In this document: piece after piece, positions 1-18,248 of the stretch
Layout of the letters: each line of letters starts with the position of its first letter
Numbering within the stretch: position 1 is the first letter of the stretch
Source of the DNA: a virus
DNA length: 31,196 nt
Virus record (IMG/VR): IMGVR_UViG_3300036981_000384
Location: 1 to 31,196 of that record
Strand: one strand, 5' to 3'
Translations under genes and position numbers: made by a program
Notes under the pieces: model-generated
Databases searched by the model: none
Seen by the model: only the letters and a program-made list of their open reading frames with translations
Told to the model about the DNA's origin: nothing

Positions 1-28
1 GCGCATACTCCCGGCTTTTTTGTTGGCG

Positions 29-125
29 GTCTAACGGTCGTGGTTCACCTGCCGGGCGGGCAAGTCAACCTGCTGTGCCACGATCCGAGCCGCCCGCCCG
101 GTCAGCGTGGAACCCGTGGTTAGAC
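29..125 (-). repeat. attC: attC site 1 (integron recombination site)
   Basis: On the plus strand the ends are GTCTAAC (29-35) and GTTAGAC (119-125), matching RYYYAAC and GTTRRRY. Inside, GGTTCAC faces GTGGAACC with one unpaired G, and CCGGGCGGG faces CCCGCCCGG. This folded shape with an extrahelical base is the hallmark of attC. It sits just after the stop of the lipoprotein gene. Left of it a further cassette gene appears to begin (ATG at 6-4, after GGGAG), cut by the window edge. Confidence 0.9.
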
Positions 126-134
126 GGGAATGAC

Positions 135-545
135 TCAATCGGCATACGATTTGGCAGTCAGGCGCCCGGTAAATGCCAAATATCCCAACATCAGCCAGCA
201 CAAACCGCCGATGATAATAAGCACAGTCCATCCGATGCCATCATAAACTGGCTCAGGCTCCGGCTCCGGCGCTGCGACCGCAGCGTCCTGTTTCGTGCGT
301 GCTGTCGTGACAACCTGATTATTCGCCTGCGAAATGTTGCATGAGCCGATCACGAACAGCCCAGCGCAGACCGGACGATTGTCATTCTGCGTCTGGTCAG
401 CGGTCAACTCCCCGGTAGCAGTTGCAGTATTGGTGGTTGTCGGCCCCTGCCAATGATAGCTCTCGGATGATGTGTCAGAGAGCACTGGCCCACAACCGGC
501 CAGGGTCACGACCAAAAACGCCAGTACGATTATGGTGCGTTTCAT
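135..545 (-). CDS. cassette lipoprotein with C-terminal membrane segment
   Basis: The protein has 136 residues. It starts MKRTIIVLAFLVVTLAGCG, a lipoprotein signal peptide with a LAGC lipobox, so it should be lipid-anchored after cleavage before Cys. A polar Thr/Asn-rich middle and a PEPEPEP stretch follow, then a hydrophobic segment near the C-terminus (GWTVLIIIGGLCWLMLGYLAF) that could span the membrane. The ATG at 545 was chosen because GGGAGG lies a few bases upstream and the signal peptide begins exactly there. It is the only gene of its cassette, bounded by attC2 upstream and attC1 downstream. The family is not recognised. The short length and anchoring recall small membrane lipoproteins such as lysis proteins or entry-exclusion factors, but that is only a guess. 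Confidence 0.75.
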   Translation of the reverse strand: MKRTIIVLAFLVVTLAGCGPVLSDTSSESYHWQGPTTTNTATATGELTADQTQNDNRPVCAGLFVIGSCNISQANNQVVTTARTKQDAAVAAPEPEPEPVYDGIGWTVLIIIGGLCWLMLGYLAFTGRLTAKSYAD

Positions 546-556
546 CGGACCTCCCT

Positions 557-898
557 CTAAGCCGCACAACGGTCAGGGTTCACCTGCGGCTGCGCCTCGA
601 TCAGGTTCGGTGCGGCGAGTTCCACCGGCGCAGCCGTCACGGTGGAAGCCGTTGTTAGGCCGGACGGAATGAGGATGTAGAACTCCGTCTGTATCGAGCC
701 ACAGTTGCCGCAGATGCCGTAATCGTGAATCGGTGTGCCGAACATTCCGCACGCATCACAGCGCAACACCAGTTGCAACGGCTCGGCCACCAAAGCATAA
801 ACCAGATCGGTATCGTTGATGCGATCCTCGCACCACGTTGTCTCACCGGTTGCGGCGTCATCCTCGTATTGTAGGAAGATTATCTTGTGTACTGGCAC
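557..898 (-). CDS. cassette zinc-ribbon protein; C-terminus encoded by attC2
   Basis: The protein has 113 residues. Two CxxC pairs (CDACGMFG and CGNCG) about 20 residues apart suggest a small zinc ribbon, usually a protein- or nucleic-acid-binding module. The GTG start at 898 has AAGGA six bases upstream; an in-frame TTG at 928 lies inside attC3 and is less likely. The last ~35 residues (from about SGLTTASTV) are translated through attC2, ending seven bases beyond its outer core, so the tail sequence is dictated by the recombination site. It is the only gene in its cassette, between attC3 and attC2. Function unknown. The N-terminus (HKIIFLQYEDD) is acidic and not recognised. Confidence 0.65.
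   Translation of the reverse strand: MPVHKIIFLQYEDDAATGETTWCEDRINDTDLVYALVAEPLQLVLRCDACGMFGTPIHDYGICGNCGSIQTEFYILIPSGLTTASTVTAAPVELAAPNLIEAQPQVNPDRCAA
564..660 (-). repeat. attC: attC site 2
   Basis: Plus-strand ends are GCACAAC (564-570, one mismatch to RYYYAAC) and GTTAGGC (654-660). The inner arms GCGGCTGCGCC and GGCGCAGCCG pair, and GGTTCAC faces GTGGAAGCC. The loop differs from sites 1, 3 and 5, but the fold and the 97 bp length are the same. Confidence 0.85.
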
Positions 899-922
899 GT
901 TTCGATCCTTGCCGGTAGTCCG

Positions 923-1018
923 GTTCAACGGTTGGGTTCACCTGCCGGGCGGGCAAGTCAACCTGCTGTGCCACGATCCGAGCCGCCCGCCCGGTCAGCG
1001 TGGAACCCGTTGTTAGAC
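923..1018 (-). repeat. attC: attC site 3
   Basis: Ends are GTTCAAC (923-929) and GTTAGAC (1012-1018). The interior is almost identical to site 1. Near identity between attC sites at different cassettes is typical of sedentary chromosomal integrons, where one host supplies the attC type. Confidence 0.88.
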
Positions 1019-1197
1019 GGGACGGTACACCATAGCTTCGTGCGCAACTCCCACTCTCTCCCGCATTGATCGCAAGTGACGGCGCTCTCGTCTGACAGGA
1101 AAAAATCCTTCGCTCCGCAGACGCAATCGAACCCGCACCCGCAATCCCACCACAGGATTTTCGGCATCAGTTCAGCCGGAGCAGGCGGCAATTTCAT
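958..1197 (-). CDS. cassette zinc-ribbon protein, second gene of a two-gene cassette
   Basis: The protein has 79 residues. Cys clusters WDCGCGFDCVCG and CDQCG, about 20 residues apart, suggest a zinc ribbon. The start ATG (1197) overlaps the stop of the upstream cassette gene as ATGA, the arrangement used for translational coupling. The C-terminal ~25 residues (from about CTVPSNNG) are read from attC3 and end inside that site. Family not recognised; a role in binding nucleic acid or another protein is a guess from the fold alone. Confidence 0.6.
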   Translation of the reverse strand: MKLPPAPAELMPKILWWDCGCGFDCVCGAKDFFLSDESAVTCDQCGREWELRTKLWCTVPSNNGFHADRAGGSDRGTAG

Positions 1198-1403
1198 ATT
1201 AGCCCGCTCGGCCCAGTGACCACGAGTGCCCCAACGCCATACTCTGTTATCTCGCTGGCATGAATCCACTGGATGTCATCAGCGCCGGGCCGTTGAATGC
1301 CGATCTCGTTGCGGGTATCGTCCCATCGGATGACTAGCCCGAATCCTCCGCCAGGATACATAATCGGGCACTCTCCGAGTTCCATGAGCCGTTGGAATTC
1401 CAT
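1194..1403 (-). CDS. cassette protein, first gene of a two-gene cassette
   Basis: The protein has 69 residues (MEFQRLMELGECPIMYP...). The ATG at 1403 has GGGGAGGGGAG just upstream and lies immediately after attC4. An earlier GTG at 1490 is inside attC4 and would add attC-derived sequence, so it was rejected. No motif is recognised: the middle (GFGLVIRWDDTRNEIGIQ) looks like beta strands and the C-terminus is hydrophobic (GVGALVVTG). Its stop overlaps the start of the next gene as ATGA, so the two proteins are probably made together, as in a toxin-antitoxin or partner pair, though no toxin or antitoxin signature is visible. Confidence 0.6.
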   Translation of the reverse strand: MEFQRLMELGECPIMYPGGGFGLVIRWDDTRNEIGIQRPGADDIQWIHASEITEYGVGALVVTGPSGLI

Positions 1404-1426
1404 GTTCTCCCCTCCCCGGTAGTCCG

Positions 1427-1521
1427 GTCTAACGGCGAGCGTCACCTGCTCGCCACCGTCCGTGATTCTCACTGTCCACGATCTCGCCACGGTGGCGAGT
1501 CAGGTGGACGCAGTGTTAGGC
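1427..1521 (-). repeat. attC: attC site 4
   Basis: Ends are GTCTAAC (1427-1433) and GTTAGGC (1515-1521). The inner arms CTCGCCACCGT and ACGGTGGCGAG pair, with CACCTG facing CAGGTGG and an unpaired T between. The sequence differs from the other sites but the structure is kept, as expected for attC, where structure rather than sequence is recognised. Confidence 0.87.
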
Positions 1522-1691
1522 CGGACGACAGCCAAACAACGCACACACCGGACGACACCCGTCCAGTCTACGAAAACAGCGCCATCATGCGCACAGTATG
1601 CGATCTGACGTTTACATGCCCGCTGATGACTTCCGGCCTTGCGTGCCGTCGTTACTCTGCCGCAATAGGGGCACGTCACGTAGTTGGTCAT
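1500..1691 (-). CDS. cassette zinc-finger protein, second gene of a two-gene cassette
   Basis: The protein has 63 residues (MTNYVTCPYCGRVTTARKAG...). CPYCG, then H and C about 13-17 residues later (SHQRAC), form a C2HC-type zinc finger; a second pair, CVRC, lies near the end. The start at ATG 1691 overlaps the upstream stop as ATGA; a start four codons earlier (1703) is possible. The last residues (RPNTAST) come from attC4. Small C2HC fingers of this sort usually bind nucleic acid. No closer family is recognised. Confidence 0.62.
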   Translation of the reverse strand: MTNYVTCPYCGRVTTARKAGSHQRACKRQIAYCAHDGAVFVDWTGVVRCVRCLAVVRPNTAST

Positions 1692-1912
1692 GGGTTCGCC
1701 CATTCGCTCGGCATCGAGACGCCGGTAATGTTGTGGCGCTGATGCGTCTCACGGTAGATCACATCCACCCACCACGCACCGAGGATGTCATCGTCTCGCC
1801 TGGCAACTACGTGCAGGACGTTCTCCTCACCAATGCGTCGAATGACCTCGGCAGCTTCCTCAAGCGCCTTTGAGATGTCCCCGTTCTGGTAGCATGAATT
1901 CACTTCGTACAT
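1688..1912 (-). CDS. cassette protein, first gene of a two-gene cassette
   Basis: The protein has 74 residues (MYEVNSCYQNGDISKALEEAAEVIRRIG...). GAGGGG lies a few bases before the ATG at 1912, right after attC5. A helix rich in Ala/Glu (ISKALEEAAEVIRRIGEENV) is followed by beta-like segments. It is coupled by an ATGA overlap to the zinc-finger gene downstream. The family is not recognised. Confidence 0.65.
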   Translation of the reverse strand: MYEVNSCYQNGDISKALEEAAEVIRRIGEENVLHVVARRDDDILGAWWVDVIYRETHQRHNITGVSMPSEWANP

Positions 1913-1936
1913 ACGTTTCCCCTCGCCGGTAGTCCG

Positions 1937-2034
1937 GCCTAACGGTTGGGTTCACCTGCCGGGCGGGCTGGCGAACCTGCGATACGACACGATCCGGGCC
2001 GCCCGCCCGGTCAGCGTGGAACTCGTTGTTAGAC
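1937..2034 (-). repeat. attC: attC site 5, proximal end of the array
   Basis: Ends are GCCTAAC (1937-1943) and GTTAGAC (2028-2034). The interior matches sites 1 and 3 except in the loop. Because cassettes are read leftward, this is the end of the array nearest a missing attI or integrase. No integrase or attI is visible to its right before the next operon. Confidence 0.88.
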
Positions 2035-2118
2035 GGGCCACGCACGCAACACCTGTTGCTAAGTTTGCGAAATCCTGCAAGCCTCAAAAAACTCGTTGAA
2101 AACTCGTCCCGAAACCTA

Positions 2119-2147
2119 TTGACAAACCTAGCGATAGGTTGTATAAT
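2119..2147 (+). promoter_or_regulatory. near-consensus sigma-70 promoter with operator-like palindrome in the spacer
   Basis: TTGACA (2119-2124) and TATAAT (2142-2147) are separated by exactly 17 bases. The spacer contains the perfect inverted repeat AACCTA-gcga-TAGGTT (2125-2140), and another AACCTA precedes the -35. A repressor bound there would block polymerase, so this promoter is probably tightly controlled despite its strength. It drives the operon beginning at 2198. Confidence 0.85.
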
Positions 2148-2197
2148 ACGGTCATAGTTAGGTAACAAAACACCCACCCAACACAGAGGAGACCACG

Positions 2198-2527
2198 ATG
2201 AACGACAAACGCCAGATCGCCGGAACGCAACACAGCATTTCGCAGATGGTCGATGCAGCCATCGCCGAGACGGATAGCATGACGCTGAATACCGAGGCCG
2301 CTCGCCAATCTCTCGCCCGTCTGGGGCATCAGAATCCTGATGAGAAACTGGTCATCCGCTACGCTCGCGAGAGCGCCATTCTGAGCATCCTGGGCCATAT
2401 GACCGGGGCCAATTTCGCTGGTCAGATCGGTAAAATCAATTTCGCCAATCGCGAAACAACCATCGACAGCGTACATAGCTATCTGAATCGCCGCATCCAG
2501 GGCCAGCACGCTCGCTGGACTCGCTAG
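2198..2527 (+). CDS. hypothetical protein, first gene of a strong operon
   Basis: The protein has 109 residues. GAGGAG lies upstream of the ATG. The sequence is soluble and mostly helical (SISQMVDAAIAETDSM, AARQSLARLG, EKLVIRYARESAILSILGHM). No known domain is recognised. It is the first of three same-strand genes behind a near-perfect promoter, ahead of a strong terminator, so the product is likely made at high level when derepressed. Its neighbour carries a zinc ribbon, and the third gene ends in a basic tail. The position between the attC array and the recombinase block suggests accessory or early phage genes. Confidence 0.7.
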   Translation: MNDKRQIAGTQHSISQMVDAAIAETDSMTLNTEAARQSLARLGHQNPDEKLVIRYARESAILSILGHMTGANFAGQIGKINFANRETTIDSVHSYLNRRIQGQHARWTR

Positions 2528-2536
2528 GAGGATCAC

Positions 2537-2758
2537 ATGCAGACCGCCAAAACCTGGCACGACACGGACAGCGGACTCGGCATCGGTGGCATCAATAACG
2601 ATCAATCCATGCCGATTATCCCCACGGAGCAGACCATTGCACGGCTGCAACGCATGATGGATACCGATACCATCTGCCGACGCTGCGGCGCATCGAAGAA
2701 TTTCGACGGAGCGATGTTTACCACGGTCGGTGGCAATATCTGCGACGATTGCGCCTGA
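2537..2758 (+). CDS. small zinc-ribbon protein
   Basis: The protein has 73 residues. An excellent ribosome site (AGGAGG) precedes the ATG. Near the C-terminus CRRCG and CDDC flank a ~20 residue loop (ASKNFDGAMFTTVGGNI), a classic zinc ribbon. Such small ribbons in phages are often regulators or adaptors of transcription or replication proteins; which applies here cannot be told. It lies nine bases after the preceding gene, in the same operon. Confidence 0.7.
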   Translation: MQTAKTWHDTDSGLGIGGINNDQSMPIIPTEQTIARLQRMMDTDTICRRCGASKNFDGAMFTTVGGNICDDCA

Positions 2759-2803
2759 GCTACATGCCCCGCTGGTCGGGCCATAGGCCAGCAGAGGGAC
2801 CCC

Positions 2804-3259
2804 ATGAAAACATTTCCCAGGATTGATATGAGCGAATTCGAGGGTATCCGATTTGCCAATGACCAGGATACCTGGGGTGAATTTGTATCTGACGTGAAAC
2901 CCGGCCTGGAGTTTTACGCCGTGGTCATTTTCAACACCAGCACGGGCAACGAGTTCACCCGTGGGCAATCCGAGCCAGCTCGCAAAAACATGAGCGGCGA
3001 ACGGTGCGTGAATGGTTGGTGCGGTACGACCAACAACAGCGATGTAACCGCCATCGGCAAATGGCAGATCGTGTCCGCCAATCGGTTGCCCAACGTCGGA
3101 AATGGCAGTCAGTTCAGAATCGAGGCTGTTCCTGTCGAAACTGAAACCGCCAGTGCCGCGGCCGTCCTCGGCTCGATGACCTCCGAGCGCAAGGCGATCA
3201 GCAGCGCCGCTAACGGGCGCAAGGGGGGCAGACCCCGCAAAATCCAGCCGACTGAGTAG
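2804..3259 (+). CDS. hypothetical protein with basic GRKGGRPRK tail
   Basis: The protein has 151 residues and is the third gene of the operon. The body is acidic to neutral with no recognised fold. The last ~35 residues ([20 protein letters not shown]) form a helix plus basic tail seen at the C-terminus of many small phage and plasmid proteins and probably bind nucleic acid. A strong terminator follows about 20 bases after the stop. Confidence 0.7.
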
Positions 3260-3281
3260 TACGCTCATCATCTCCCCGTCA

Positions 3282-3309
3282 GCCCCTCCCCACGGAGGGG
3301 CTTTGTTTT
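3282..3309 (+). terminator. rho-independent terminator of the 2198-3259 operon
   Basis: GCCCCTCC (3282-3289) and GGAGGGGC (3294-3301) form an 8-bp perfect stem with a 4-base loop, followed by TTTGTTTT. Confidence 0.9.
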
Positions 3310-3312
3310 GGT

Positions 3313-3342
3313 CCGTCTAACTTGTTTGTAGGCGGATTTTTT
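3313..3342 (+). terminator. second hairpin with T-run
   Basis: CCGTCTA (3313-3319) pairs with TAGGCGG (3329-3335) with one G-T wobble, followed by six T. It lies between the convergent operons and may back up the first terminator. Confidence 0.55.
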
Positions 3343-3376
3343 CCGTCTATCTGCGTATCAGCGCGGTCATTGCGGA

Positions 3377-3601
3377 TCACTCCGCTTCCGTGTAGCGGCC
3401 CGCCCGCGCTTCCCGGGCGGTGGTCTCGATCTTGGCGAGATCGTCGCTGACCGTAGCGATTTTCGCCAGCAGGAGCGGGTCCTGGGTGCGCTGCGCACGA
3501 TCCAGGACGATGCGCCAGGCGGTGCGGGCGTTGAGGCAGCCGGCGATAATGTCCTCCAGCGCCCAGCCGGTTTTATTGGCGAGCCGGGTCGGTGTGGCCA
3601 C
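3377..3601 (-). CDS. hypothetical helical protein
   Basis: The protein has 74 residues (VATPTRLANKTGWALEDIIAG...). The GTG start at 3601 has GGAGG seven bases upstream; a longer reading from 3745 gives low-complexity Ser/Pro-rich sequence in a frame overlapping the membrane gene and was rejected. The sequence is nearly all helix (LEDIIAGCLNARTAWRIVLDRAQ, LLLAKIATVSDDLAKIETTAREA), probably a small coiled-coil. It overlaps the end of the upstream membrane protein gene by 29 bases, so the two are likely cotranslated and may work together. No family recognised. Confidence 0.6.
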   Translation of the reverse strand: MATPTRLANKTGWALEDIIAGCLNARTAWRIVLDRAQRTQDPLLLAKIATVSDDLAKIETTAREARAGRYTEAE

Positions 3602-3890
3602 GGGCGGCCTCCAGTTGTTCCCGGTGATCCTGCCATTCGTTGGCGAGTGAACGGACGATGATGCCGATGGCGGAGGCGGCGATGACGGTGCAGACCTGGA
3701 GCCAGAGCGCGACGGGCAGGACGGCCAGCAGGATGAGCAGATCAACGCCGCAGCCGATCACGACGGCGAGCCAGGCGCGGCGGACGGCGAGGAAGCGCCC
3801 CCAGCCGGTGTACTGGAGCAGGGCCGCCCAAACTGCTCCCCAGACTGCGGCCAAAATGACCGCCATGATGATCATCGGTGTAGGCTCCAT
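3573..3890 (-). CDS. small integral membrane protein
   Basis: The protein has 105 residues with about three hydrophobic segments: residues 5-25 (PMIIMAVILAAVWGAVWAAL), 38-62 (RAWLAVVIGCGVDLLILLAVLP) and 62-80 (VALWLQVCTVIAASAIGIIV), then a charged tail (ANEWQDHREQLEAARG). A holin-like role is possible from size and topology, but there is no endolysin beside it. The start ATG at 3890 lacks a clear ribosome site; a GGATAA/TTATCC palindrome (3897-3915) sits just upstream. It overlaps the next gene (3377-3601). Confidence 0.65.
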   Translation of the reverse strand: MEPTPMIIMAVILAAVWGAVWAALLQYTGWGRFLAVRRAWLAVVIGCGVDLLILLAVLPVALWLQVCTVIAASAIGIIVRSLANEWQDHREQLEAARGHTDPARQ

Positions 3891-3896
3891 GTGTAG

Positions 3897-3915
3897 GGAT
3901 AAGCAGATATTATCC
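3897..3915. repeat. GGATAA-N7-TTATCC palindrome
   Basis: GGATAA (3897-3902), a 7-base loop, TTATCC (3910-3915). It is one of several copies in the window (also 6726, 9306, 15395, 19275, 28658). Confidence 0.75.
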
Positions 3916-3926
3916 TCAGATCGAGA

Positions 3927-3966
3927 TCCTTCGACTGCGGGCTGCGGCCCTTCGCTCAGGATGACA
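3927..3966. repeat. TCCTTCGACTGCG...CTCAGGATGACA interspersed repeat
   Basis: The outer parts TCCT and AGGA are inverted, as in other copies. This copy lacks the GGGGTGACCCC insert. It lies between the recombinase stop and the membrane protein gene. Confidence 0.8.
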
Positions 3967-3977
3967 AAGCGGAAAGG

Positions 3978-5192
3978 TTAGATGCCCATAGCCAACTGGA
4001 GGGCCTGGGAGTAGTCGTCGACTGGGGCCTCGAGGGCGTCCAGGTAGATTTGGGTGACGGCGATGGATGAGTGGTGCATCCGTTGCGAGATTTTCAGGAC
4101 GTCGAAGCCGGCTTTGCGCATGCTGTGCGCAAAGGTGTGGCGCAGGTTGTGGACGTGGTAGGTTTGGGCGCGCTCGGCGGCTTCCGCCTGGGTGAGGCCG
4201 GTTTGGCGCAGGGCGCGGCGCAGGTGTTTGCGCAGGATGTTGTTGGCCTGCGTCGGGCTGATGTGGCGTTCTGTGACTGCAGCGTCTCCGTCCGGCGGGC
4301 GGGGTGACCCCGCCCCTACAGCATTGGGGAAATTCTTGGTGCCGTGGTCGCGCAGGGGCTGCCAGATGTGGTCGGCGGGCTGGATGTGGGCGGGGTGGCC
4401 GGGCAGCCAGCGGCCGGCGCATTTGAGATAGGCGACGATGGCGTGGTAGCAGGGGGCAGGGAACGGGTCGTCCTGTTCTTTCGCGCCTTTGCCCTGCCAG
4501 GCGAAGATAAATTCGCCGTCGCGTTCGTCGTTGGGGCGGATGTCGCCCCAGGTCATGGTGAGGACTTCGGTTGAGCGCCAGCCGGTGAGCAGAAAACATT
4601 TGAGCAGGGCGTAGTCGCGGGCGCCGTCCAGGGTTTTGACGTTGATGTCGTTCATCATGTGGACGATGACCGCTTTGGCGAGCGGCCGGGATTTGCCTTT
4701 GCGGTTGACGGCGATGCGTTCGAGGTTGCCGACCTTGAATGGGTTGGCGCGGGTGCGGCCCTGGGCGTCGAAGAAAAGGGAACGCTCGATGCCGTCGGCG
4801 CCGAGCCGCTGCTCGCGCAGGACGTAGGAGTAGAAGGAGGAGACGCTGCTGAGCCGCTGGTTGATGGTGGCGCGGCTGAGAGCCAGGTCTTCCATGTGTG
4901 CCTGCCAGGCGCGGACGTGATCGGAGGTGACGAGCCACCAGTCGAGGCCGGTGTAGGCGGCGAAAAGGTTGGTGGCGGCTTCGTAGGCTTTGCGGGTGGC
5001 GATGGAGTTGGGCCGGCCGCGGCGGTTGGCGCGCAGCCAGCGGTCGCGCATCGCGGACCAGGCCAGACGGAGCTGGTGGATGGCCTGTTCCTGATAGGCG
5101 CCCCCAAAGATGGCGCGGGCCGGGTCGCCGCCGACTGGACCCAGGGCGGTCTCGGTTTCAGGGGGCAGGACTTCTACGGTCTGGTAGTTCAT
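3978..5192 (-). CDS. int: tyrosine recombinase / integrase 1
   Basis: The protein has 404 residues. An N-terminal SAM-like DNA-binding domain (about 55-135: TRKAYEAATNLFAAYTG...INQRLSSVSSFYSYV) is followed by the catalytic domain. The catalytic set is visible: Arg206 (TGWRSTEV), Lys235 (QGKGAK), His348-x-x-Arg351 (VHNLRHTFA), His373/374 and Tyr383 (TQIYLDA). It cuts and rejoins DNA through a 3'-phosphotyrosine. The ATG at 5192 has GAGG about nine bases upstream. Residues 291-302 (AVGAGSPRPPDG) are a translated copy of the mobile GGGGTGACCCC repeat in the loop before the HxxR box, apparently tolerated. It lacks a recognisable integron-integrase insertion and is not next to the tRNA half-site. 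Its target is unknown; it could integrate or resolve the element. Confidence 0.9.
   Translation of the reverse strand: MNYQTVEVLPPETETALGPVGGDPARAIFGGAYQEQAIHQLRLAWSAMRDRWLRANRRGRPNSIATRKAYEAATNLFAAYTGLDWWLVTSDHVRAWQAHMEDLALSRATINQRLSSVSSFYSYVLREQRLGADGIERSLFFDAQGRTRANPFKVGNLERIAVNRKGKSRPLAKAVIVHMMNDINVKTLDGARDYALLKCFLLTGWRSTEVLTMTWGDIRPNDERDGEFIFAWQGKGAKEQDDPFPAPCYHAIVAYLKCAGRWLPGHPAHIQPADHIWQPLRDHGTKNFPNAVGAGSPRPPDGDAAVTERHISPTQANNILRKHLRRALRQTGLTQAEAAERAQTYHVHNLRHTFAHSMRKAGFDVLKISQRMHHSSIAVTQIYLDALEAPVDDYSQALQLAMGI
4294..4320. repeat. intragenic GCGGGGTGACCCCGC repeat in integrase 1
   Basis: The core of the interspersed repeat (GGGGTGACCCC plus CGCCCCTAC) is embedded in the recombinase gene and read as GAGSPRP. 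Confidence 0.8.
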
Positions 5193-5449
5193 GGCTGGCG
5201 GCCTCGATGCGATCAAGTTGTTCGGTGCGGATCAAGTTGCGAATTGCGAATTTCTCCTCGCCGACGGGTGCTCTACGGCTGTCCAGACCGGAGAACGCCC
5301 GCCGGCACACCATGGAGGAAGAACCGAACCGGTGATCACCAATCGCCCGGTCCGAGCCCGGGCTGATGCCTGCGTGAGCGTTCCGCCCTTGTTTCACGAT
5401 CTGACTGTTGTTGCTTTCGGCAGGATCAGTCCGGCCTCGCGCCGGGCGA
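5193..5449. other. gap between integrase 1 and the small-gene block
   Basis: No firm gene. On the minus strand an open frame 5313-5158 (51 residues, MVCRRAFSGLDSRRAP...) ends inside the start of integrase 1 and has a helical stretch (FAIRNLIRTEQLDRIEAASHEL). It has no ribosome site, so it is only a weak candidate for an excisionase-sized protein. Confidence 0.3.
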
Positions 5450-5764
5450 TCAGGTGAGAAGTTCGCGCCAGGTGAAGGTGCAGGCGCACCAGCGGAGCGC
5501 CCGCTGGGTTTTGGGATGGGTCGAGGTCCAGGAGCGGCGGGACATGCTGTCGATGCCGTCGGGCACGCCAAACGCCTCGGCCCAGGTTTCGGCCTCGCTG
5601 AGGGTCGGGTAGGCGGTCTCACGGCGCAGCGTCAGATAGAAGGCGCCGTTGGTGTGGGCGAGATGCAGAAACAGCCCCCGTTCCGGTTCCGCCTCGACGT
5701 GCTCGTCGCGGCTGTGCTGCAAGGCCAGGCGGATGGCGTTGGCGGTGGCGGTCGGCGCGGTCAT
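5450..5764 (-). CDS. hypothetical protein
   Basis: The protein has 104 residues (MTAPTATANAIRLALQHSRDE...). The ATG at 5764 overlaps the stop of the upstream gene as ATGA. The sequence has a beta-rich middle (RGLFLHLAHTNGAFYLTLRRE) and a helix (LSEAETWAEAFGVPDG) and reads like a small single-domain protein. No family recognised. It is last in a four-gene coupled minus-strand operon that starts opposite the repressor, a position typical of phage early genes under repressor control. Confidence 0.65.
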   Translation of the reverse strand: MTAPTATANAIRLALQHSRDEHVEAEPERGLFLHLAHTNGAFYLTLRRETAYPTLSEAETWAEAFGVPDGIDSMSRRSWTSTHPKTQRALRWCACTFTWRELLT

Positions 5765-6288
5765 CGGGATATCCTGATGGGGGCGTAGAGTTCGCTGCCC
5801 AGGCCCTCGCAGCCGTTGACGGTGACGGCCTGGTCGAGGGTGAACGTGCGGCGGGTGCTGACCCGGCTGAACCAGTAGCCATAGTCGCAGGTGCCGCTGA
5901 CGAAACCCTGGCCGGCGTCGGTGACGGTGCAGGCGATGTTGTAGCGCAGGTTGCGGCCGTTGTGGCCGCAGCCGCCCAGGTTGCCGGCGACGGGGCGGGG
6001 CAGCGGGGCAGCGAGGCCGGCGATCCGGCTCTGGCGCGCCGGGCCGCATAAGGTGGCCCGCTGCCACGTGACGCCCACGCGCTGAAACACGGTGCGGCAG
6101 ACGCAGGGCTGCCCGGAGTTGGTGCTGCACGTCCAGACCAGTGGGTCGGCGAGCGGCGCGGCGGCGACTTCGTCGCCCGACAGCGCCAGGATCAGCAGCA
6201 GCAGAAAGCCGACGACGATGATGATGATGCTGCTCAGTAGTGTCTTTTGTGGCGGCGATAGTTTGGGGTTGGGGGCGTCGTTTGGCAT
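5761..6288 (-). CDS. membrane-anchored Cys-rich exported protein
   Basis: The protein has 175 residues. One strong membrane segment lies at 17-41 (TLLSSIIIIVVGFLLLLILALSG), preceded by a short polar N-terminus, so the rest probably faces outward (type II). The outer part carries many Cys (WTCSTNSGQPCVCRTVF, ATLCG, GGCG, IACTV, GTCDYG, NGCEG), likely disulfide-bonded. No domain recognised. A surface protein made from the repressor-controlled operon might alter the cell envelope or block superinfection, but nothing in the sequence proves it. It starts four bases after the preceding gene and overlaps the next by ATGA. Confidence 0.7.
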   Translation of the reverse strand: MPNDAPNPKLSPPQKTLLSSIIIIVVGFLLLLILALSGDEVAAAPLADPLVWTCSTNSGQPCVCRTVFQRVGVTWQRATLCGPARQSRIAGLAAPLPRPVAGNLGGCGHNGRNLRYNIACTVTDAGQGFVSGTCDYGYWFSRVSTRRTFTLDQAVTVNGCEGLGSELYAPIRISR

Positions 6289-6291
6289 GGT

Positions 6292-6708
6292 TTACTCCGC
6301 TTTGAGTGACCGGGTGGGGATGCGCCCAAGCAGTCCCGGCTCGACGGCCAGGAGCCGGGCGTAGCGGCTGGTAAAGATGTTGTTGAGCTGGTAAGTATCT
6401 TCGCCGGTGGCGGTCGGTGTGCCGCCGGCCCGCAATTCCTCGAACAGCAACTTAGGCGAGATGCGCCGGGCGCCCCGCTCGGCTTTCGCCAGGGCCAGGT
6501 CACGCAGGAGGTTATAGACATGCGGATTGCTACGATGAAACTGCATAAACCGGGCTTCGATGGTCAACTCGCCCTGCGCCGGTTGCGCCGGCTCAAACGG
6601 CAGCGCCGGATGATCGGCTGGTACAGGCACGTTTAGCCGGTACTCCACGATCATGCGGCGGGTGCGGCGGGTGCGGGTGGTGGGTTCGTCGTAGCAGTTC
6701 GGGGTCAT
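6292..6708 (-). CDS. conserved phage-type protein with FHxxNPHVY motif
   Basis: The protein has 138 residues. The core RFMQFHRSNPHVYNLLRDLA, followed by RGARRISPKLLFEELR and a C-terminal LNNIFTSRYARLL, matches a pattern I know from uncharacterised small phage proteins; its function is not established and the match is from memory. A winged-helix-like DNA-binding fold is possible. The N-terminus is variable and basic. Start ATG 6708 overlaps the upstream stop as ATGA. Second gene of the operon facing the repressor. Confidence 0.7.
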   Translation of the reverse strand: MTPNCYDEPTTRTRRTRRMIVEYRLNVPVPADHPALPFEPAQPAQGELTIEARFMQFHRSNPHVYNLLRDLALAKAERGARRISPKLLFEELRAGGTPTATGEDTYQLNNIFTSRYARLLAVEPGLLGRIPTRSLKAE

Positions 6709-6956
6709 GCTGGCGTCTCCACTGGGGATAAGACATTCTTATCCTCAGGATTGACGGTGATCAGCAGATCTTCGGCGGTGGGGAATGCGGCCGGCGGCAT
6801 GGCCTGCCAGTGGAGCAGCAGCGCCCGGATCAGGTCCTCATAGCTCCAGAATCGCTGTGTCTTGAGGGCGACGGTGGCCTTCTCGGAGCGAAGCTGGGCG
6901 ACTAACTCACGGCTGAGCGTCATGGTGGTGGGGTAGGGACTCATTTTTCCAGTCAT
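6705..6956 (-). CDS. small protein, first gene of the repressor-opposed operon
   Basis: The protein has 83 residues (MTGKMSPYPTTMTLSREL...). The ATG at 6956 has GGAGG six bases upstream; an ATG two codons earlier would overlap the ribosome site. Residues 13-50 (LSRELVAQLRSEKATVALKTQRFWSYEDLIRALLLHW) look helical and could form a ribbon-helix-helix or similar small DNA-binding fold, fitting a Cro- or excisionase-like position, but no known family is matched. Its 3' half contains an in-frame GGATAAG/CTTATCC palindrome (6726-6744) read as PEDKNVLS. Confidence 0.7.
   Translation of the reverse strand: MTGKMSPYPTTMTLSRELVAQLRSEKATVALKTQRFWSYEDLIRALLLHWQAMPPAAFPTAEDLLITVNPEDKNVLSPVETPA
6726..6744. 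repeat. GGATAAG-N5-CTTATCC palindrome inside a gene
   Basis: Perfect 7-bp arms with a 5-base loop (6726-6732 and 6738-6744), flanked by CTGG and TCAGG. Same family as the intergenic copies, here translated. Confidence 0.75.
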
Positions 6957-6973
6957 ATGCACCTCCTGTTATT

Positions 6974-6986
6974 TCACTGACAGTGA
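6974..6986. promoter_or_regulatory. operator-like palindrome TCACTG-A-CAGTGA
   Basis: A 13-base perfect inverted repeat lies just downstream of the -10 of the minus-strand promoter and before the first gene of that operon. This is the place and size of a lambda-type operator. The adjacent Xre-like protein is the obvious candidate ligand (inference). Confidence 0.7.
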
Positions 6987-6987
6987 T

Positions 6988-7016
6988 ACTATATCATGTA
7001 AACAATAGAAAAGCAA
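6988..7016 (-). promoter_or_regulatory. minus-strand early promoter
   Basis: Read on the minus strand: TTGCTT (7016-7011), a 17-base spacer, TATAGT (6993-6988). It points to the operon 6956-5450. Confidence 0.65.
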
Positions 7017-7051
7017 TACTCAATCTCACCAAAATGCATAATTTTAAGCTT

Positions 7052-7082
7052 CAGTAAGAGATAGTCTTATTGAGGGTAATAT
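7052..7082 (+). promoter_or_regulatory. repressor promoter region with a second palindrome
   Basis: CAGTAAGA (7052-7059) and TCTTATTG (7065-7072) form an inverted repeat with one mismatch. TAATAT (7077-7082) follows, placing a start of transcription at about the ATG of the repressor (7090). There is no ribosome site before that ATG, so the repressor mRNA is probably leaderless, like lambda cI from its maintenance promoter. Confidence 0.5.
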
Positions 7083-7089
7083 AGCCGAG

Positions 7090-7638
7090 ATGGAATTGTT
7101 GAACACGACAGGAAAACGCCTACGGGTTCTCAGACGTGACCTTGATCTCACGCAGACAGAGTTGGCTCGTCAACTCAGTCTGCTCGGCGTCAGGGCCAAT
7201 CCTTCCTACATTTCGACGATAGAAGGATCGAACAAAGTCCCAAGTGGAGAGGTGTTAGGAGGTCTGGCGCGTGTGCTCCGCACGACCACGGACTACCTAC
7301 TGCTATTGACGGATGATCCGCTGATCCCTGGGGAGCCGGACGAGGACGTGCGTGAGGTGGGCGACGAGGAATGGGCGCTGCTGCTGGAGCTGCGCCGGCT
7401 GCCGGAAGTGGACCGGCGCTCACTGGTCAAGGTGTTCTACGAACTGATCGGTCTGGGCCGACAGCAGGCGGAACGGAGCGGGCGGCCGCTCGGTGAATCC
7501 CCGCTGCGCGGGCTGCCGCGGCCGCCTCAGTCGCGCGAGGATCTGGCGGTGCTGTTGATGTCGCTGCCTGATGCGGCGCTCGATGAGTTGGTGGGGCGGG
7601 CAGCCGAGATCCTGCGCAAGAACGAGCGGATGACCTGA
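7090..7638 (+). CDS. Xre-family repressor (cI-like)
   Basis: The protein has 182 residues. The N-terminal 65 residues form a helix-turn-helix of the Xre/HTH_3 type (GKRLRVLRRDLDLTQTELARQLS...NPSYISTIEGSNKVPSGEVLGGLARVLR). The rest is acidic then helical (VREVGDEEWALLLELRRLPEVDRRSLVKVFYELI), without the Ser-Lys protease of LexA-type repressors, so induction would need another signal, such as an antirepressor. It is divergent from the 6956-5450 operon, with palindromes between them, the standard layout of a phage immunity switch. Autoregulation is likely. Its last 112 bases overlap an antisense gene (7527-7742). Confidence 0.85.
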   Translation: MELLNTTGKRLRVLRRDLDLTQTELARQLSLLGVRANPSYISTIEGSNKVPSGEVLGGLARVLRTTTDYLLLLTDDPLIPGEPDEDVREVGDEEWALLLELRRLPEVDRRSLVKVFYELIGLGRQQAERSGRPLGESPLRGLPRPPQSREDLAVLLMSLPDAALDELVGRAAEILRKNERMT

Positions 7639-7742
7639 AGCCAGGTCTCGCGTTCTAGGTCGGCCCGTTGCGCGGAGGTCATCCGATCGTAATCGGCGAG
7701 GATCGTCTCCGCCTTATAGCGGCGGTGTTTCTTTCGGGTCAT
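7527..7742 (-). CDS. small basic protein antisense to the repressor 3' end
   Basis: The protein has 71 residues (MTRKKHRRYKAETILADYDRM...). The ATG at 7742 has GAGGA seven bases upstream and a good promoter at 7780-7808. The N-terminal 42 residues look real (basic RKKHRRYK, then helix TSAQRADLERETWLQVIRSF); the Ser/Ala-rich tail is read antisense to the repressor gene and may be filler. The product might be a small regulator. Transcription into the repressor could also interfere with it. No family recognised. Confidence 0.5.
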   Translation of the reverse strand: MTRKKHRRYKAETILADYDRMTSAQRADLERETWLQVIRSFLRRISAARPTNSSSAASGSDINSTARSSRD

Positions 7743-7756
7743 GGTTGTCCTCAATG

Positions 7757-7777
7757 GCGAACAGAACGCGTGTTCGC
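7757..7777. promoter_or_regulatory. palindrome GCGAACA-N7-TGTTCGC
   Basis: Perfect 7-bp arms with a 7-base spacer directly between the promoter and ribosome site of the small minus-strand gene. A probable operator. Confidence 0.6.
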
Positions 7778-7779
7778 AC

Positions 7780-7808
7780 ATTGTAGAGAATCATATCGCA
7801 GATGGCAA
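7780..7808 (-). promoter_or_regulatory. minus-strand promoter for the gene at 7742
   Basis: On the minus strand: TTGCCA (7808-7803), 17-base spacer, TACAAT (7785-7780). Confidence 0.65.
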
Positions 7809-7927
7809 GGGGTAGTATCCCCAAGTTTATCGCAATTTTGACATTCAATAATGCATAGTGCCGCTCGGTCTGAAATCTTACAGTTGATCGGCAGCCTCGT
7901 CCGGACCCCCACCGGCTGAGGGTATTG

Positions 7928-7960
7928 GGGGTGCGTCGTTCTCCCAGGCGCACCCCGGTT
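7928..7960 (+). terminator. hairpin upstream of the Thr/Pro-rich gene
   Basis: GGGGTGCG (7928-7935) and CGCACCCC (7949-7956) form a perfect 8-bp stem, followed by GGTTTTG. The T-run is short, so it is a weak terminator or an mRNA leader structure. Confidence 0.45.
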
Positions 7961-7977
7961 TTGACCAGGAGGAACAG

Positions 7978-8604
7978 GTGCCTGCAATGGTGCTGGTGCT
8001 CATCATAGCCTTACTCGGCGGCGGATGGAGCCTGTATCTGCCGCTGGTGTTGCAGGGTGGCGTCGCGATGCCGACGGCTACGCCATCGGAAACGGCCACT
8101 GAGATCCCAACGGCCACGGCGACAGCTTCGTCAACTCCCACGGTGACTCCCACCACGACTCCGACGGCCACGGCAACGTTGACGGGGACACCGATCAACA
8201 CGCCCAGCGTCACGCCTGCGGCGACGGCTACGCCGACAGCCACACAGACGAGCACGGTCACGCCGACACCCTCACACACGGCCACATGGACGAGCACGGC
8301 AACGGTCACGCCTACCGAGACGGCGACGGCGACACCAACGGCAACGGTCACACCGACAAGGACGGCGACGGCGACACGGACGGGGACGCCGACGCGAACG
8401 CCTACGGCGACGGCGACAACGTCGCGGACGCCGACGTCCACTCGCACGAGCGCGCCGACGCGCACACGCACACCGACGGCGACGGCAACGACGGCGACAC
8501 AATACTGCTGCAAGCATTGCGCTCCCACCAGCAAACCATGTGGCGATTCGTGTATTTCACTGAGCTACACGTGCCACAAGCCGCCGGGGTGCGCGTGCCC
8601 GTGA
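7978..8604 (+). CDS. anchored Thr/Pro-rich protein with Cys-rich C-terminal module
   Basis: The protein has 208 residues. A hydrophobic N-terminus ([22 protein letters not shown]) is a signal anchor or signal peptide. About 145 residues of Thr-Pro-Thr-Ala low complexity follow, a spacer common in secreted Chloroflexota proteins and probably a wall- or surface-spanning stalk. The C-terminal 35 residues contain eight Cys ([26 protein letters not shown]); I recall similar PCGxSCI...CHKxxGCAC tails in small environmental proteins of unknown role. The GTG start at 7978 has AGGAGG five bases upstream. The stalk DNA is a near-tandem ACGGCNACG repeat, so its length may vary between strains. It could be a lysogenic conversion or surface-display protein (inference). 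Confidence 0.75.
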
Positions 8605-9776: not shown

Positions 9777-9831
9777 TGACGATGGGTGGTGTTCACCAGG
9801 CCGCCAGGACGGCGAACGCCACCCATCGTCA
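9777..9831. promoter_or_regulatory. long hairpin before integrase 2
   Basis: TGACGATGGGTGG (9777-9789) and CCACCCATCGTCA (9819-9831) form a perfect 13-bp stem; the 29-base loop can pair further (TTC/GAA, CCG/CGG). It ends 36 bases before the recombinase start and may control its translation or act in recombination. Confidence 0.55.
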
Positions 9832-9866
9832 ACCACTACCGCTACTACCTGAGAGGAGGCAGTGCG

Positions 9867-10844
9867 ATGCGGCTTGATTATGCGCTGGAGGGGTACTGGT
9901 TGTCAAGGCGGCGGGGGTTTTCGCCGCATACGGTGGCGGATTACTCGGTGACGTTCCGGCGGCTGGCTGAGTTTGTGGGGCCGGATCGCGAGTTCGAGAA
10001 GATTGCGACGGTGGATTTGAACCGGTTTCTGAATCACCTGCAGGAGGATATAGGGCTGAGTCCGAAGACGGTGCTGAATGCGTGGACGGCGCTGTCGTCG
10101 CTGTGGACGTGGGCGGAGAACGAGACGGGCGCGCAGCACGTGATGCGGGGGAAGATCCGGAGGCCGGTGTATCATCGTCCACAGGTGGAACCGTTCACTG
10201 AGGAGGAGGTACGCAAATTACTGGCGGCCTGTGAGCATATGCAGGCGTGGGATCGGGCGCACGCGGTGTATGTGCAGGGCGAGCGACCGACGGCGGTGCG
10301 AGATCGAGCAATGCTGCTGATGATGTTGGACTGCGGTCTACGGGTGAGCGAGCTGACGGGGTTGGACGTGAGCGATTATGATCCGAAGCGCGGGGCGATC
10401 ACGATCCGGCATGGGAAGGGCGACAAGAAGCGGGTGATCTCCATTGCGAACACGGCACGCCAGGCGATGTGGAAGTATTTGAAGGGGAGAGCTAAGCCAG
10501 ATTGCGGGCGGGGGCACCCCGCCCCTACGCTCAGGATGACAGCGACGGGAGCGGAGGATCCGTTGTTCTTGTCGTCGATGACGGGGGGACGGATGGATCG
10601 GACGGCGGTGCGGGCGATTGTGATGCGGGCGGGGGCGCGGGCGGGGGTGGCGAAGGCGCATCCGCACCGGTTTCGGCACACGTTCGCGGTGAATTTCTTA
10701 CGTAATGGGGGGAACCCGCTGGCGCTGCAGGACATCCTGGGTCATGAGAAGCTAGACACGGTTAGGATCTATGTCAAGCTGGCTGAGATGGACCTGGTGA
10801 AGGCGCAGCTTGGGGCAAGTCCAGCCGATAGATGGGCATTGTAG
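9867..10844 (+). CDS. int: tyrosine recombinase / integrase 2 (XerC/D-like)
   Basis: The protein has 325 residues. The N-terminal core-binding domain (1-90: LEGYWLSRRRGFSPHTVADYSVTFRRLAEFVG) is followed by the catalytic domain with Arg159 (CGLRVSEL), Lys184 (HGKGDKKR), His267-x-x-Arg270 (HPHRFRHTFA), His293 (LGHEKLDT) and Tyr302 (RIYVKL). AGGAGG lies seven bases before the ATG at 9867. It is next to the tRNA-Pro half and direct repeats, so it most likely integrates the phage at a tRNA-Pro(CGG) gene. Residues about 211-226 (PDCGRGHPAPTLRMTA) are a translated interspersed repeat between the Lys and HxxR boxes, very like the insertion in integrase 1. Confidence 0.92.
   Translation: MRLDYALEGYWLSRRRGFSPHTVADYSVTFRRLAEFVGPDREFEKIATVDLNRFLNHLQEDIGLSPKTVLNAWTALSSLWTWAENETGAQHVMRGKIRRPVYHRPQVEPFTEEEVRKLLAACEHMQAWDRAHAVYVQGERPTAVRDRAMLLMMLDCGLRVSELTGLDVSDYDPKRGAITIRHGKGDKKRVISIANTARQAMWKYLKGRAKPDCGRGHPAPTLRMTATGAEDPLFLSSMTGGRMDRTAVRAIVMRAGARAGVAKAHPHRFRHTFAVNFLRNGGNPLALQDILGHEKLDTVRIYVKLAEMDLVKAQLGASPADRWAL
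10503..10541. repeat. intragenic interspersed repeat in integrase 2
   Basis: TGCGGGCGGGGGCACCCCG... ending CTCAGGATGACA, read in frame as CGRGHPAPTLRMT. It lacks the TCCTTCGAC left end. Confidence 0.85.
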
Positions 10845-12996: not shown

Positions 12997-13695
12997 ATGT
13001 CTGAGCACGATGAGTTGATAGAGGGTGACTTTCCGGCGGCGGAGAACACGCCCGGCCAGGCGGAGAGCCGGGCGGCACGCAGTCAGCTCGACCGGTGGCT
13101 GAAGGAGCAAGGCGATCAGCAACCGGCCTGGCTGGATTTGTGGAACGATCTGCGGGCGGAGCAGGCGCCGATGGTGGGGCGGGATGGCGAGCTGCTGCTG
13201 AACGAGCGAGGCGAGGCGCGCACGCGGCGGCGCTGGGATTGGCGGAAGGCCTTGTACATCGCCTGGGCGAGCGTGCCGCGGTCGCGGCGGCATCCAGCGA
13301 CGCTGGATGGGCTGTGCGATCTGCTAGGGCTGAGTTCGGCAGGGTCGATTCGGGGCTGGCGACGGAATGATCCGGAGATCGTGGAACGGATCGCGAGTTT
13401 GCCGGCGACGCTGCTGATGGACCACGTGGCTGACGTGTTGGATGCGCTGACGACGGTGGCGAAGTGGAACGATCCACGGGCGCATCCAGATCGTAAGTTA
13501 TTTCTGGAGATAACAAGGATTTATCATCCGAAGGGGATCGTTGAGGTCGAGGGCCGGCTGGGACTCGACGTGGATGATCCGCTGGAGGATGAAGAGCAGG
13601 CGGCCGTAGAGGAGTTGCTGCGGGCGCGAGCCAGGGTGCGGAGCGAGAGCGGTGATGGCGGCAGCGGGGGCGCTACAGCGGGCGGCACGGCGTAA
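12997..13695 (+). CDS. terS: terminase small subunit-like protein
   Basis: The protein has 232 residues. Position directly before and overlapping the large terminase, size, and content support the call: WRKALYIAWASVPRSRRHPATLDGLCDLLGLSSAGSIRGWRRNDPEIVE (about 80-130) looks like the helix-turn-helix of small terminases, followed by a helical oligomerisation part and an acidic C-terminus (DDPLEDEEQAAVEELL). It would recognise the packaging site. No ribosome site is obvious before the ATG. Confidence 0.75.
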   Translation: MSEHDELIEGDFPAAENTPGQAESRAARSQLDRWLKEQGDQQPAWLDLWNDLRAEQAPMVGRDGELLLNERGEARTRRRWDWRKALYIAWASVPRSRRHPATLDGLCDLLGLSSAGSIRGWRRNDPEIVERIASLPATLLMDHVADVLDALTTVAKWNDPRAHPDRKLFLEITRIYHPKGIVEVEGRLGLDVDDPLEDEEQAAVEELLRARARVRSESGDGGSGGATAGGTA

Positions 13696-15142
13696 CTCGG
13701 CGATCTTCGCTCGTTGCTGGCGAGGGCTGGAGCCGGCAGCGCATCAGTACGACATGGCGGCCCGAGTGGATGCGCCAGCTCCGTATCAGGCAGATTTCTG
13801 GCCCAGGGACCACGGCAAAAGCGAGATTTTCTGTATCTCGTATCCGTTGCGACGCATCTGCGAGGATCCGAATGTCCGGGTCCTGATCGTGCAGAAGACG
13901 GCGACCGAGGCCGTCAAGACGCTCGGGGTGATCAAGGCGGAGCTGGAGAGCAATCAGGCGCTGAAGGCGTTTTACCGGCCGCATTGGGAATGCACGGTGG
14001 GCCAGGCGGACATCTGCAATCAGGCCGGGGCGCAGATGGTCGGCGGGAAGAAGGAAGGTTCCTGGCAGCAGCAACGCATCTATGTGAAGCGCCGGCGGCG
14101 CGGGAAGGACCCCACGGTCGAGGCGGTAGGCGTGGGGGGGGCGATCACGGGCGGACATTTTGACGTGATCATCCTGGATGACGTCGAGGACGACGAGAAT
14201 ACCGGGACGGACGACCGGATTGCGGCGATGATCGAGTGGTTCACGGGGACGATCATGCAGCTCCGAGAGCCGCACACGAAGATCATGATTGTCGGCACGT
14301 TGAAAACCAATCGGCGGGACATCTATCAGATCGTGCGTGAGAATCCGGTGTGGGACGTGTTTGTGACGGGGGCGATCCTGAGCCATGCGCTGGATGAGAT
14401 CCAGTATGACCTGGTGCGGAATGCGAACGGGATCGTGGTGGACGTGGATGTGCGGACGCCGGATGTGCGAACGCTGTGGCCGCAGAAGTGGAGCATCCGG
14501 GCGCTGCTGCTGGAGATGGTGGCCAGCCTGGACCGGGCGGTGTGGATCCGGGAGAAGCTGAACGATCTGCGAGCGCTGGCTGGCAAAATCTTCGACCGGG
14601 GGCTGTTCCGTTATTTCGATGTTGAGATGCTGGCTGTGGTGGAGGCATCCGGCGGGTGGGAACGGCTGATTCAGATTTGGGACACGGCCTACGAGGAGAA
14701 GAAGGCGGCGGATTGGTCGGTATGCGGGACGCTGGGGTTGTTCCGAGGTCTGGTGTATTTGCTGGATGTGTTCCGGGCCAAGATGGAACTGCCCCAACTC
14801 CAAACGGCAATCGTGCAGCAGTTCATGGCCTGGCGGCCGACAGAGGTATGCGTGGAAGATGCGGCTTCGGGCAAAAGCGTGCTGCAGGTGTTGGAGCAAC
14901 AGACGGGGCTGCCGTTGGTACGCATTTCTCCGGAGGGGCGGGATAAGGTAGCCCGGGCGCGATCAGCGACGCCCTATTTGCAGGCCGGGCGCATTCTGTT
15001 GCGCGGGGGGGCGAGCTGGGCGCCAACGTTTCTGGATGAGGTGGCGATGTTCCCGGATGGGGCGCATGACGATCAGGTAGACATGCTGGTGTATGGCACG
15101 CTGCGACTGATGTTGGGTTCCGGCAGCGGAATCCATGTGTAA
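13652..15142 (+). CDS. terL: terminase large subunit
   Basis: The protein has 496 residues (GTG at 13652 or ATG one codon later). ATPase: a degenerate Walker A at 50-58 (WPRDHGKSE), Walker B at 171-179 (DVIILDDVE), and motif III around IVGTLKTN (214-221). The nuclease domain has Asp345 (IWDTAYEEKK), Asp404 (VEDAASGKS) and the D474-D475...D478 group (GAHDDQVD). The enzyme pumps DNA into proheads and cuts it. The start lies 44 bases inside the small terminase gene, implying translational coupling. Confidence 0.92.
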   Translation: MMAAAGALQRAARRNSAIFARCWRGLEPAAHQYDMAARVDAPAPYQADFWPRDHGKSEIFCISYPLRRICEDPNVRVLIVQKTATEAVKTLGVIKAELESNQALKAFYRPHWECTVGQADICNQAGAQMVGGKKEGSWQQQRIYVKRRRRGKDPTVEAVGVGGAITGGHFDVIILDDVEDDENTGTDDRIAAMIEWFTGTIMQLREPHTKIMIVGTLKTNRRDIYQIVRENPVWDVFVTGAILSHALDEIQYDLVRNANGIVVDVDVRTPDVRTLWPQKWSIRALLLEMVASLDRAVWIREKLNDLRALAGKIFDRGLFRYFDVEMLAVVEASGGWERLIQIWDTAYEEKKAADWSVCGTLGLFRGLVYLLDVFRAKMELPQLQTAIVQQFMAWRPTEVCVEDAASGKSVLQVLEQQTGLPLVRISPEGRDKVARARSATPYLQAGRILLRGGASWAPTFLDEVAMFPDGAHDDQVDMLVYGTLRLMLGSGSGIHV

Positions 15143-15156
15143 TCGAGGAGGATCAG

Positions 15157-15357
15157 ATGCGTTCGGTGGGTGACTGGGTGGCTCTGGTGTGTTTTGTGAG
15201 CCTGGCGCTGCTGGGCTGGTGGGTGCTGGTGTATGGTCTGTCGTGGCCGGCGGTCGGGGTGGGGGCGTGGTGGCTGATTGTGGGGCTGCTGGCGGGGATC
15301 AAGCCGGGCGAGTGGCAGAAGGCAACGGATAAGAAACGGATAAACGGATCGGGGTGA
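15157..15357 (+). CDS. small two-helix membrane protein
   Basis: The protein has 66 residues. Two membrane segments, about 7-28 (WVALVCFVSLALLGWWVLVYG) and 32-48 (AVGVGAWWLIVGLLAGI), precede a polar tail. GAGGAGG precedes the ATG. The size and topology fit a holin, but the place between terminase and portal is unusual for lysis genes. The 3' end is made of CGGATAA repeats. Confidence 0.7.
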   Translation: MRSVGDWVALVCFVSLALLGWWVLVYGLSWPAVGVGAWWLIVGLLAGIKPGEWQKATDKKRINGSG

Positions 15358-15364
15358 TTGCGCG

Positions 15365-15388
15365 CCATGATTGCGCGCGCAATCATGG
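15365..15388. repeat. 24-bp perfect palindrome
   Basis: CCATGATTGCGC followed at once by GCGCAATCATGG. No loop and no T-run, so not a typical terminator. It lies in the 91-base gap before the portal gene, next to a degenerate GGATAA/TTATCG copy (15395-15413). Confidence 0.85.
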
Positions 15389-15448
15389 GACGGGGGATAA
15401 GGCTTTATTATCGTTAGGATGCGGATGGGGCAGGGGCGGGGTGACGGG

Positions 15449-17752: not shown

Positions 17753-17753
17753 T

Positions 17754-17810
17754 CCTTCGACTGGCGTTGAGTCGGGTTCCGGTTTGAGTTGATGGCCCGC
17801 TCAGGATGAC
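17754..17810. repeat. variant interspersed repeat between portal-MuF and gp10-like genes
   Basis: TCCTTCGACTGGCG ... CCCGCTCAGGATGAC with a different centre. It carries the end of the spacer before the next gene. Confidence 0.65.
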
Positions 17811-17826
17811 TTGGGGGCGCGGAGAC

Positions 17827-18225: not shown

Positions 18226-18248
18226 TGGGGAGAGGGGGAGGTGGCGGG

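Follow-up and report, generated by a model that had tools for sequence, protein, structure and literature searches.

So far, integron cassettes have mainly been described on chromosomes, plasmids and transposons. Qi et al. 2023 (PMC9892861) described 17 CALINs (attC clusters lacking an integrase) in phages and found five of six tested attC sites to be active with IntI1; the attCs of Tetrasphaera phage TJE1 recombine with IntI1 (PMC9892861). Phage-borne cassette arrays, which the original prediction for the DNA considered here had not known to be established, were thus already published.

We analysed the whole of a linear IMG/VR virus record, IMGVR_UViG_3300036981_000384 (31,196 bases; hereafter the window), and find that this tailed-phage record carries an authentic attC array with no IntI, of the kind first reported in 2023. 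As in the phage CALINs of Qi et al. 2023 and TJE1, an attC array, the lack of IntI, a tailed phage and a cargo of the small-protein and methylase kind come together here. Unlike in the 2023 set, one attC family here spans several unrelated or distantly related phages, three of these phages have related attI-like blocks, and in two near-identical records one cassette lies within the head-gene region. The combination of a single attC family shared by several environmental phages, a conserved attI-like block and the lack of an integrase appears to be new; we found no report of it in the open-access literature, subscription papers lying outside that search.

The phage background is clear from gene content, as terminase, portal, head and tail genes lie within the one record (PHROGs). 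The features that define it are:

3978-5216, minus strand: phage tyrosine integrase (PF00589, E 7e-17; TIGR02249, 41.9 bits, cut-off 265)
7090-7638: helix-turn-helix, repressor-like gene
9786-10844, plus strand: XerC/D-like tyrosine recombinase (TIGR02249, 83.2 bits, cut-off 265)
13652-31196, plus strand: siphovirus packaging, head and tail genes (PHROGs), with terminase, portal, protease, major head protein, adaptor and a truncated tape measure toward the right end

The repressor-like gene and the two tyrosine recombinases mark the phage as temperate by gene content. Both recombinases score far below the TIGR02249 cut-off and were rejected as IntI, so that no IntI is present in the 31-kb window by this model, which bears out, for integron integrases, the earlier statement that no integrase is visible. 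The locus therefore lacks the intI of a complete integron and has the make-up of a CALIN, for which two or more attCs near one another and no adjacent integron integrase suffice: it has five attCs within 2 kb, its far side being cut by the contig end. The original prediction had set the array beside the phage late region; its neighbours are instead the integrase at 3978-5216 and the early-gene side. A tRNA scan of the window returned no tRNA, and hence no tRNA-linked att site was found. An Rfam scan of the window gave no family up to its cut-off, positions 1-8000 had no useful nucleotide relatives among GenBank phages and plasmids, and the window integrase had no relatives in viral contigs. 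The sole return of a scan of bacterial genome contigs for the host was an Acidobacteriota match that we treated as chance.

The left end of the window holds the five attC sites, whose canonical strand is in every case the minus strand, the one that also carries the cassette genes:

29-125, minus strand: attC1, R'' GTCTAAC, R' GTTAGAC; R2 45.8 bits, E 2.2e-9; R1 99.5 bits; fold z -3.9
564-660, minus strand: attC2, R'' GCCTAAC, R' GTTGTGC; R2 54.1 bits, E 2e-11
923-1018, minus strand: attC3, R'' GTCTAAC, R' GTTGAAC; R2 50.2 bits, E 1.8e-10
1427-1521, minus strand: attC4, R'' GCCTAAC, R' GTTAGAC; R2 75.3 bits, E 1.4e-16; fold z about -6
1937-2034, minus strand: attC5, R'' GTCTAAC, R' GTTAGGC; R2 46.8 bits, E 1.2e-9

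A first, over-strict attC pattern gave no matches. Covariance model R1 was built from 14 phage sites, the window sites included; on the window it scored 80-101 bits on the minus strand, while the plus strand gave matches at three of the five sites only, with 18-29 bits. Because R1 contains the window sites, we built a second model, R2, from sites of other phages, the class 1 attC-aadA1, aadA2 and cmlA sites and an attC of TJE1, with no window sequence. Searched against the 31 kb, this held-out model detected exactly the five sites, all on the minus strand, with E-values of 1.4e-16 to 2.2e-9 and a next-best match at 0.25 (the tool describes its E-values for such models as approximate). With these models in place of the HattCI or IntegronFinder ones proposed with the original prediction, the covariance search had the outcome that the prediction anticipated.

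Folded as single-stranded DNA, each attC takes the imperfect-hairpin shape expected of such sites, with paired L'' and L' arms. The predicted folds beat nearly all dinucleotide shuffles (z -2.1 to -6.9; 0 to 4 of 200 shuffles as good), and across 14 related sites, five from the window and nine from other phages, compensatory change is seen in the inner stem at 10 of 19 predicted pairs. The L'' arm carries an extra unpaired base on the minus strand (GTTCCAC vs GTGAAC), so that the cassettes read leftward, as do their genes, and the strand bias of the model agrees. Homology, fold and polarity thus show the five sites to be attCs. The original prediction had placed sites with paired inner arms and an unpaired base at these five positions, and both features are there; the RYYYAAC/GTTRRRY ends that it described are present in every box except the R' box of attC2, the low-coordinate box of that site, which is degenerate in reading GTTGTGC on the minus strand. 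The sites are not uniform in sequence. attC3 and attC1 are 99% identical over 88 nt, attC2 is about 90% identical to the single attC of phage records L019 and L020, and attC4 belongs to a second attC subtype, with 90-92% identity to two attCs of phage L017.

Built from phage attCs alone, R1 also recovers sites in known elements. In 91 kb of known elements, the two best R1 matches were attC-aadA1 and attC-aadA2, and R1 also detects an attC in phage TJE1; it gave no match in a Vibrio phage (L024), and therefore does not cover all attC types. With the class 1 mobile integron (attI1, attC-aadA) the window shares attC architecture, polarity and the G/TT recombination point, its resemblance to attI1 being weak; unlike that integron it has no intI, no called Pc promoter at its attI-like site and no recognised resistance genes. 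Bacterial chromosomal arrays offer a further comparison. R1 gave matches at E <= 0.001 in 32 of 297 Acidobacteriota genomes and detects multi-site arrays in some of them, like that of the window; by contrast, these sites score lower (best 50.8 bits vs 80-101 for the window sites), and the phage arrays are short and without IntI. One 6.6-kb contig (L038) of an Acidobacteriota-group genome has at least ten attC matches on one strand and is an unannotated bacterial cassette array.

Cassettes 2 to 5 each hold one or two small genes, several of which begin closely behind the R' box, and a further cassette starts at the left edge:

4-28, minus strand: start of the sixth cassette, with a leader behind the R' box, a GGGAG ribosome site and an ATG at 4-6; cut by the contig end
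135-545, minus strand: cassette 5 gene, probable lipoprotein with lipobox LAGC and a C-terminal hydrophobic stretch
557-928, minus strand: cassette 4 gene, CxxC-rich zinc-ribbon-like small protein; start codon uncertain; frame enters attC2
958-1197, minus strand: second gene of cassette 3, small Cys-rich zinc-ribbon-like protein, with its start overlapping the first gene's stop
1194-1403, minus strand: first gene of cassette 3, 69 aa, no assigned function
1500-1703, minus strand: second gene of cassette 2, zinc-ribbon-like protein
1688-1912, minus strand: first gene of cassette 2, 74 aa, no assigned function

The products of the cassette 5 and cassette 4 genes matched no family above cut-off and no curated family, respectively, and the second cassette 2 protein shares 18 identities with an L017 cassette protein in a 26-residue stretch. 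This arrangement, with minus-strand genes between minus-strand attCs, agrees with the cassette array that was predicted, with one change in extent: the array does not end at 1 and 2034 but is longer, given the sixth cassette at the left edge and, to the right, an attI-like block at 3315-3376 that implies a first cassette at 2035-3321. A leader, GTTRRRCCGGACTACCGG, is common to three window cassettes and also occurs in phage L015. The shared leader consists of the R' box plus CCGGACTACCGG and stands ahead of different genes (window 1408-1426, 904-922 and 1918-1936; L015 343-362).

The right-hand part of the array comprises:

2035-3321: inferred cassette 1, from the R box of the attI-like site to attC5; reverse-oriented transcription unit
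2119-2147, plus strand: sigma-70 promoter TTGACA-17-TATAAT (12/12), with palindrome AACCTAgcgaTAGGTT in the spacer
2198-2527, plus strand: cassette 1 ORF a, no assigned function
2537-2758, plus strand: cassette 1 ORF b, small zinc-finger-like protein (ClpX-type zinc finger below cut-off)
2804-3259, plus strand: cassette 1 ORF c, with a 92% identical ortholog beside tail genes in phage L002
3281-3302, plus strand: intrinsic terminator of the reverse unit (terminator prediction)
3315-3376, minus strand: attI-like site at the promoter-proximal end of the array; conserved upstream block

The attI-like block comprises an R box, GTTAGAC (3315-3321), an L-box-like GCCTACA (3327-3333) and an inverted repeat (3329-3336/3342-3349). 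It is identical to the L017 block at 49 of 60 positions, and the match ends at the R box, beyond which the cassette side differs. Block alignments gave z values of 11 for the window with L017 and 5.6 for the window with L015, and in all three phages the inverted repeat lies about 6 nt before GTTAGRC. In each of the three, the genes adjoining the site run toward the cassettes. Resemblance to attI1, whose query sequence was checked against plasmid records, is weak (p 0.007 for the window and 0.005 for L017), and the L015 block showed no similarity to it. No Pc promoter was called at the window site. On these sequence comparisons, the 3315-3376 block would serve as attI, and with this candidate site the array is probably more than a CALIN.

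If the block is attI, 2035-3321 is probably the first cassette, and a reversed one, since the block match stops at the recombination box. It is a complete unit in reverse, with three plus-strand genes, a perfect promoter and a terminator. The promoter with its palindrome-bearing spacer looks like a repressor-controlled phage promoter. A close relative of it lies at 2670-2700 of L002, a phage in which R1 found no attC. Cassette 1 may have been placed either by integrase action or by phage recombination.

Three further phage types, represented by L015, L017 and the pair L019/L020, carry attCs of the same family. In the 107.5-kb L015 record the array lies at 17-18 kb, next to a replication operon that includes a DnaB-like helicase, and a truncated attC remnant marks its left end. 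A Hint/LAGLIDADG intein (L029, 1570-3621) interrupts the DnaB-like helicase of the 107.5-kb phage. L017 is a 42.9-kb record that contributed six sites to R1 and whose cargo includes a C5-cytosine methylase (PF00145, E 6e-71); the window has only a few proteins in common with it, in addition to the array features. L019 and L020 are two records 98% alike; each has just one cassette, which separates head genes from the head protease. L015 and L019 come from related phages, with 76% identity between their terminases, yet differ in where the cassettes sit. The L020 cassette is complete: an R box bounds it on the left, and on the right it ends directly behind the G of the expected cut. After the attC stands GTAACTG in place of GTTRRRY, which is what one insertion into a secondary site would leave. 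The insertion point in L020 shows no clear relationship to the window, L015 and L017 blocks. Instead of genes running toward the cassette, a Pc-like TTGCAT-17-TATAAT stands upstream of it by reading, and the L020 cargo gives a weak GIY-YIG match (E 0.002, below cut-off). The L015, L017, L019 and L020 records, which may be fragments, had no detected Phage_integrase domain, and the integron integrase family had no match in L015 and L017. Pattern matches in two further records, L014 and L016, had no convincing attC or array and were taken as chance.

We consider it probable that the left end of the window is a phage-owned, integron-type cassette platform into which an IntI supplied in trans inserts cassettes. 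The minus-strand order would then be the attI-like site at 3315-3376, cassette 1 (2035-3321) and cassettes 2 to 6, split by attC5 to attC1. A recombinase acting in trans would be the likeliest mechanism: an integron integrase, most simply from a host with its own integron, would act on the folded bottom strand of an attC and recombine it into the attI-like site of the phage, and in L019/L020 would have put a cassette into a secondary site. The minus-strand cassette genes may be expressed by read-through from the neighbouring same-strand operon. The cargo would consist of swappable accessory genes, such as the small Cys-rich proteins and the lipoprotein of the window and, in its relatives, the C5-cytosine methylase and the weak GIY-YIG match. 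A counterpoint is cassette 1, which could be ordinary phage genes in reverse, placed by phage recombination.

The original prediction had allowed for a CALIN either in the phage or in flanking host DNA, and a chromosomal integron or CALIN beside an integrated prophage might indeed have been taken in when the virus record was cut, given a temperate phage with its integrase near the array end, a contig whose first position lies inside the array, so that phage genes bound the window array on one side only, and a GC content of 0.59 in the array vs 0.64 in the rest of the window. However, the attI-like block is on the phage side of the array and common to L017, no host gene was recognised in 1-3376, and the cassettes of L015 and L019/L020 have phage genes to either side. 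We regard a host origin as improbable. It is more improbable still that an integron contig was joined to a phage contig in assembly, a misjoin that attC repeats could cause: the combination recurs in separate records of three other phage types, and the joined sequence has a continuous block in common with L017. With this attC family present in three further phage types, and with phage genes to the left and right of the cassettes in two of these, neither flanking host DNA nor misassembly is a likely general explanation, although the window array itself is cut off on its left; of the two places originally named the phage is favoured.

The inverted repeat of the 3315-3376 block, its position near the phage integrase and its weak likeness to attI1 would also suit an attP, an operator or a terminator-like hairpin beside which cassettes happened to land; but related blocks mark the same boundary in L015 and L017, both without a detected tyrosine recombinase, terminator prediction does not call the block, and the match ends at the R box. 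We rate such an element as rather unlikely, though a serious contender. A somewhat smaller chance falls to the array pieces having been gained by illegitimate or homologous recombination, routes proposed by Qi et al. 2023 (PMC9892861), with no integrase acting in the phage since. The lack of IntI in all of the records, the truncated attC remnant in L015 and the degenerate attC2 box are in keeping with such a history; against it, compensatory change has kept the arms, arrays with different content begin at the same 60-bp block, and the complete L020 cassette has the edges expected of integrase action. Movement of cassettes by one of the phage's own tyrosine recombinases is very unlikely: the gene at 3978-5216 is about 600 bp from the attI-like block and on the same strand, yet it falls well short of the IntI cut-off, as does the one at 9786-10844, and related arrays occur in records in which no tyrosine recombinase was detected.

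The platform reading can be extended beyond the window, if tentatively. It is possible, at odds we would put somewhat short of even, that some environmental phages carry an integrase-less phage integron: a dedicated attI-like capture site with no integrase gene, at which the integron integrase of the host, acting in trans, would let the phage gather, rearrange and spread cassettes. As several phages carry such cassettes at different genome places, phages may collect and pass on genes by means of the cassette-shuffling machinery of their hosts. A recurring phage platform with a conserved candidate docking site would, if real, let cassettes travel from one bacterium to another by infection and offer phages a ready supply of accessory genes, for example a DNA methylase.

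Two further features of the phage genome were noted. Thr/Pro-rich low-complexity proteins are encoded mid-phage at 7978-8604 and 8639-9232. A dispersed repeat of about ten copies, up to about 55 bp long and ending in CAGGATGACA, occurs at 3957, 10532, 16910, 19068, 21290, 25872-25941 and 26185-26206, with some copies in frame inside the portal and protease genes.
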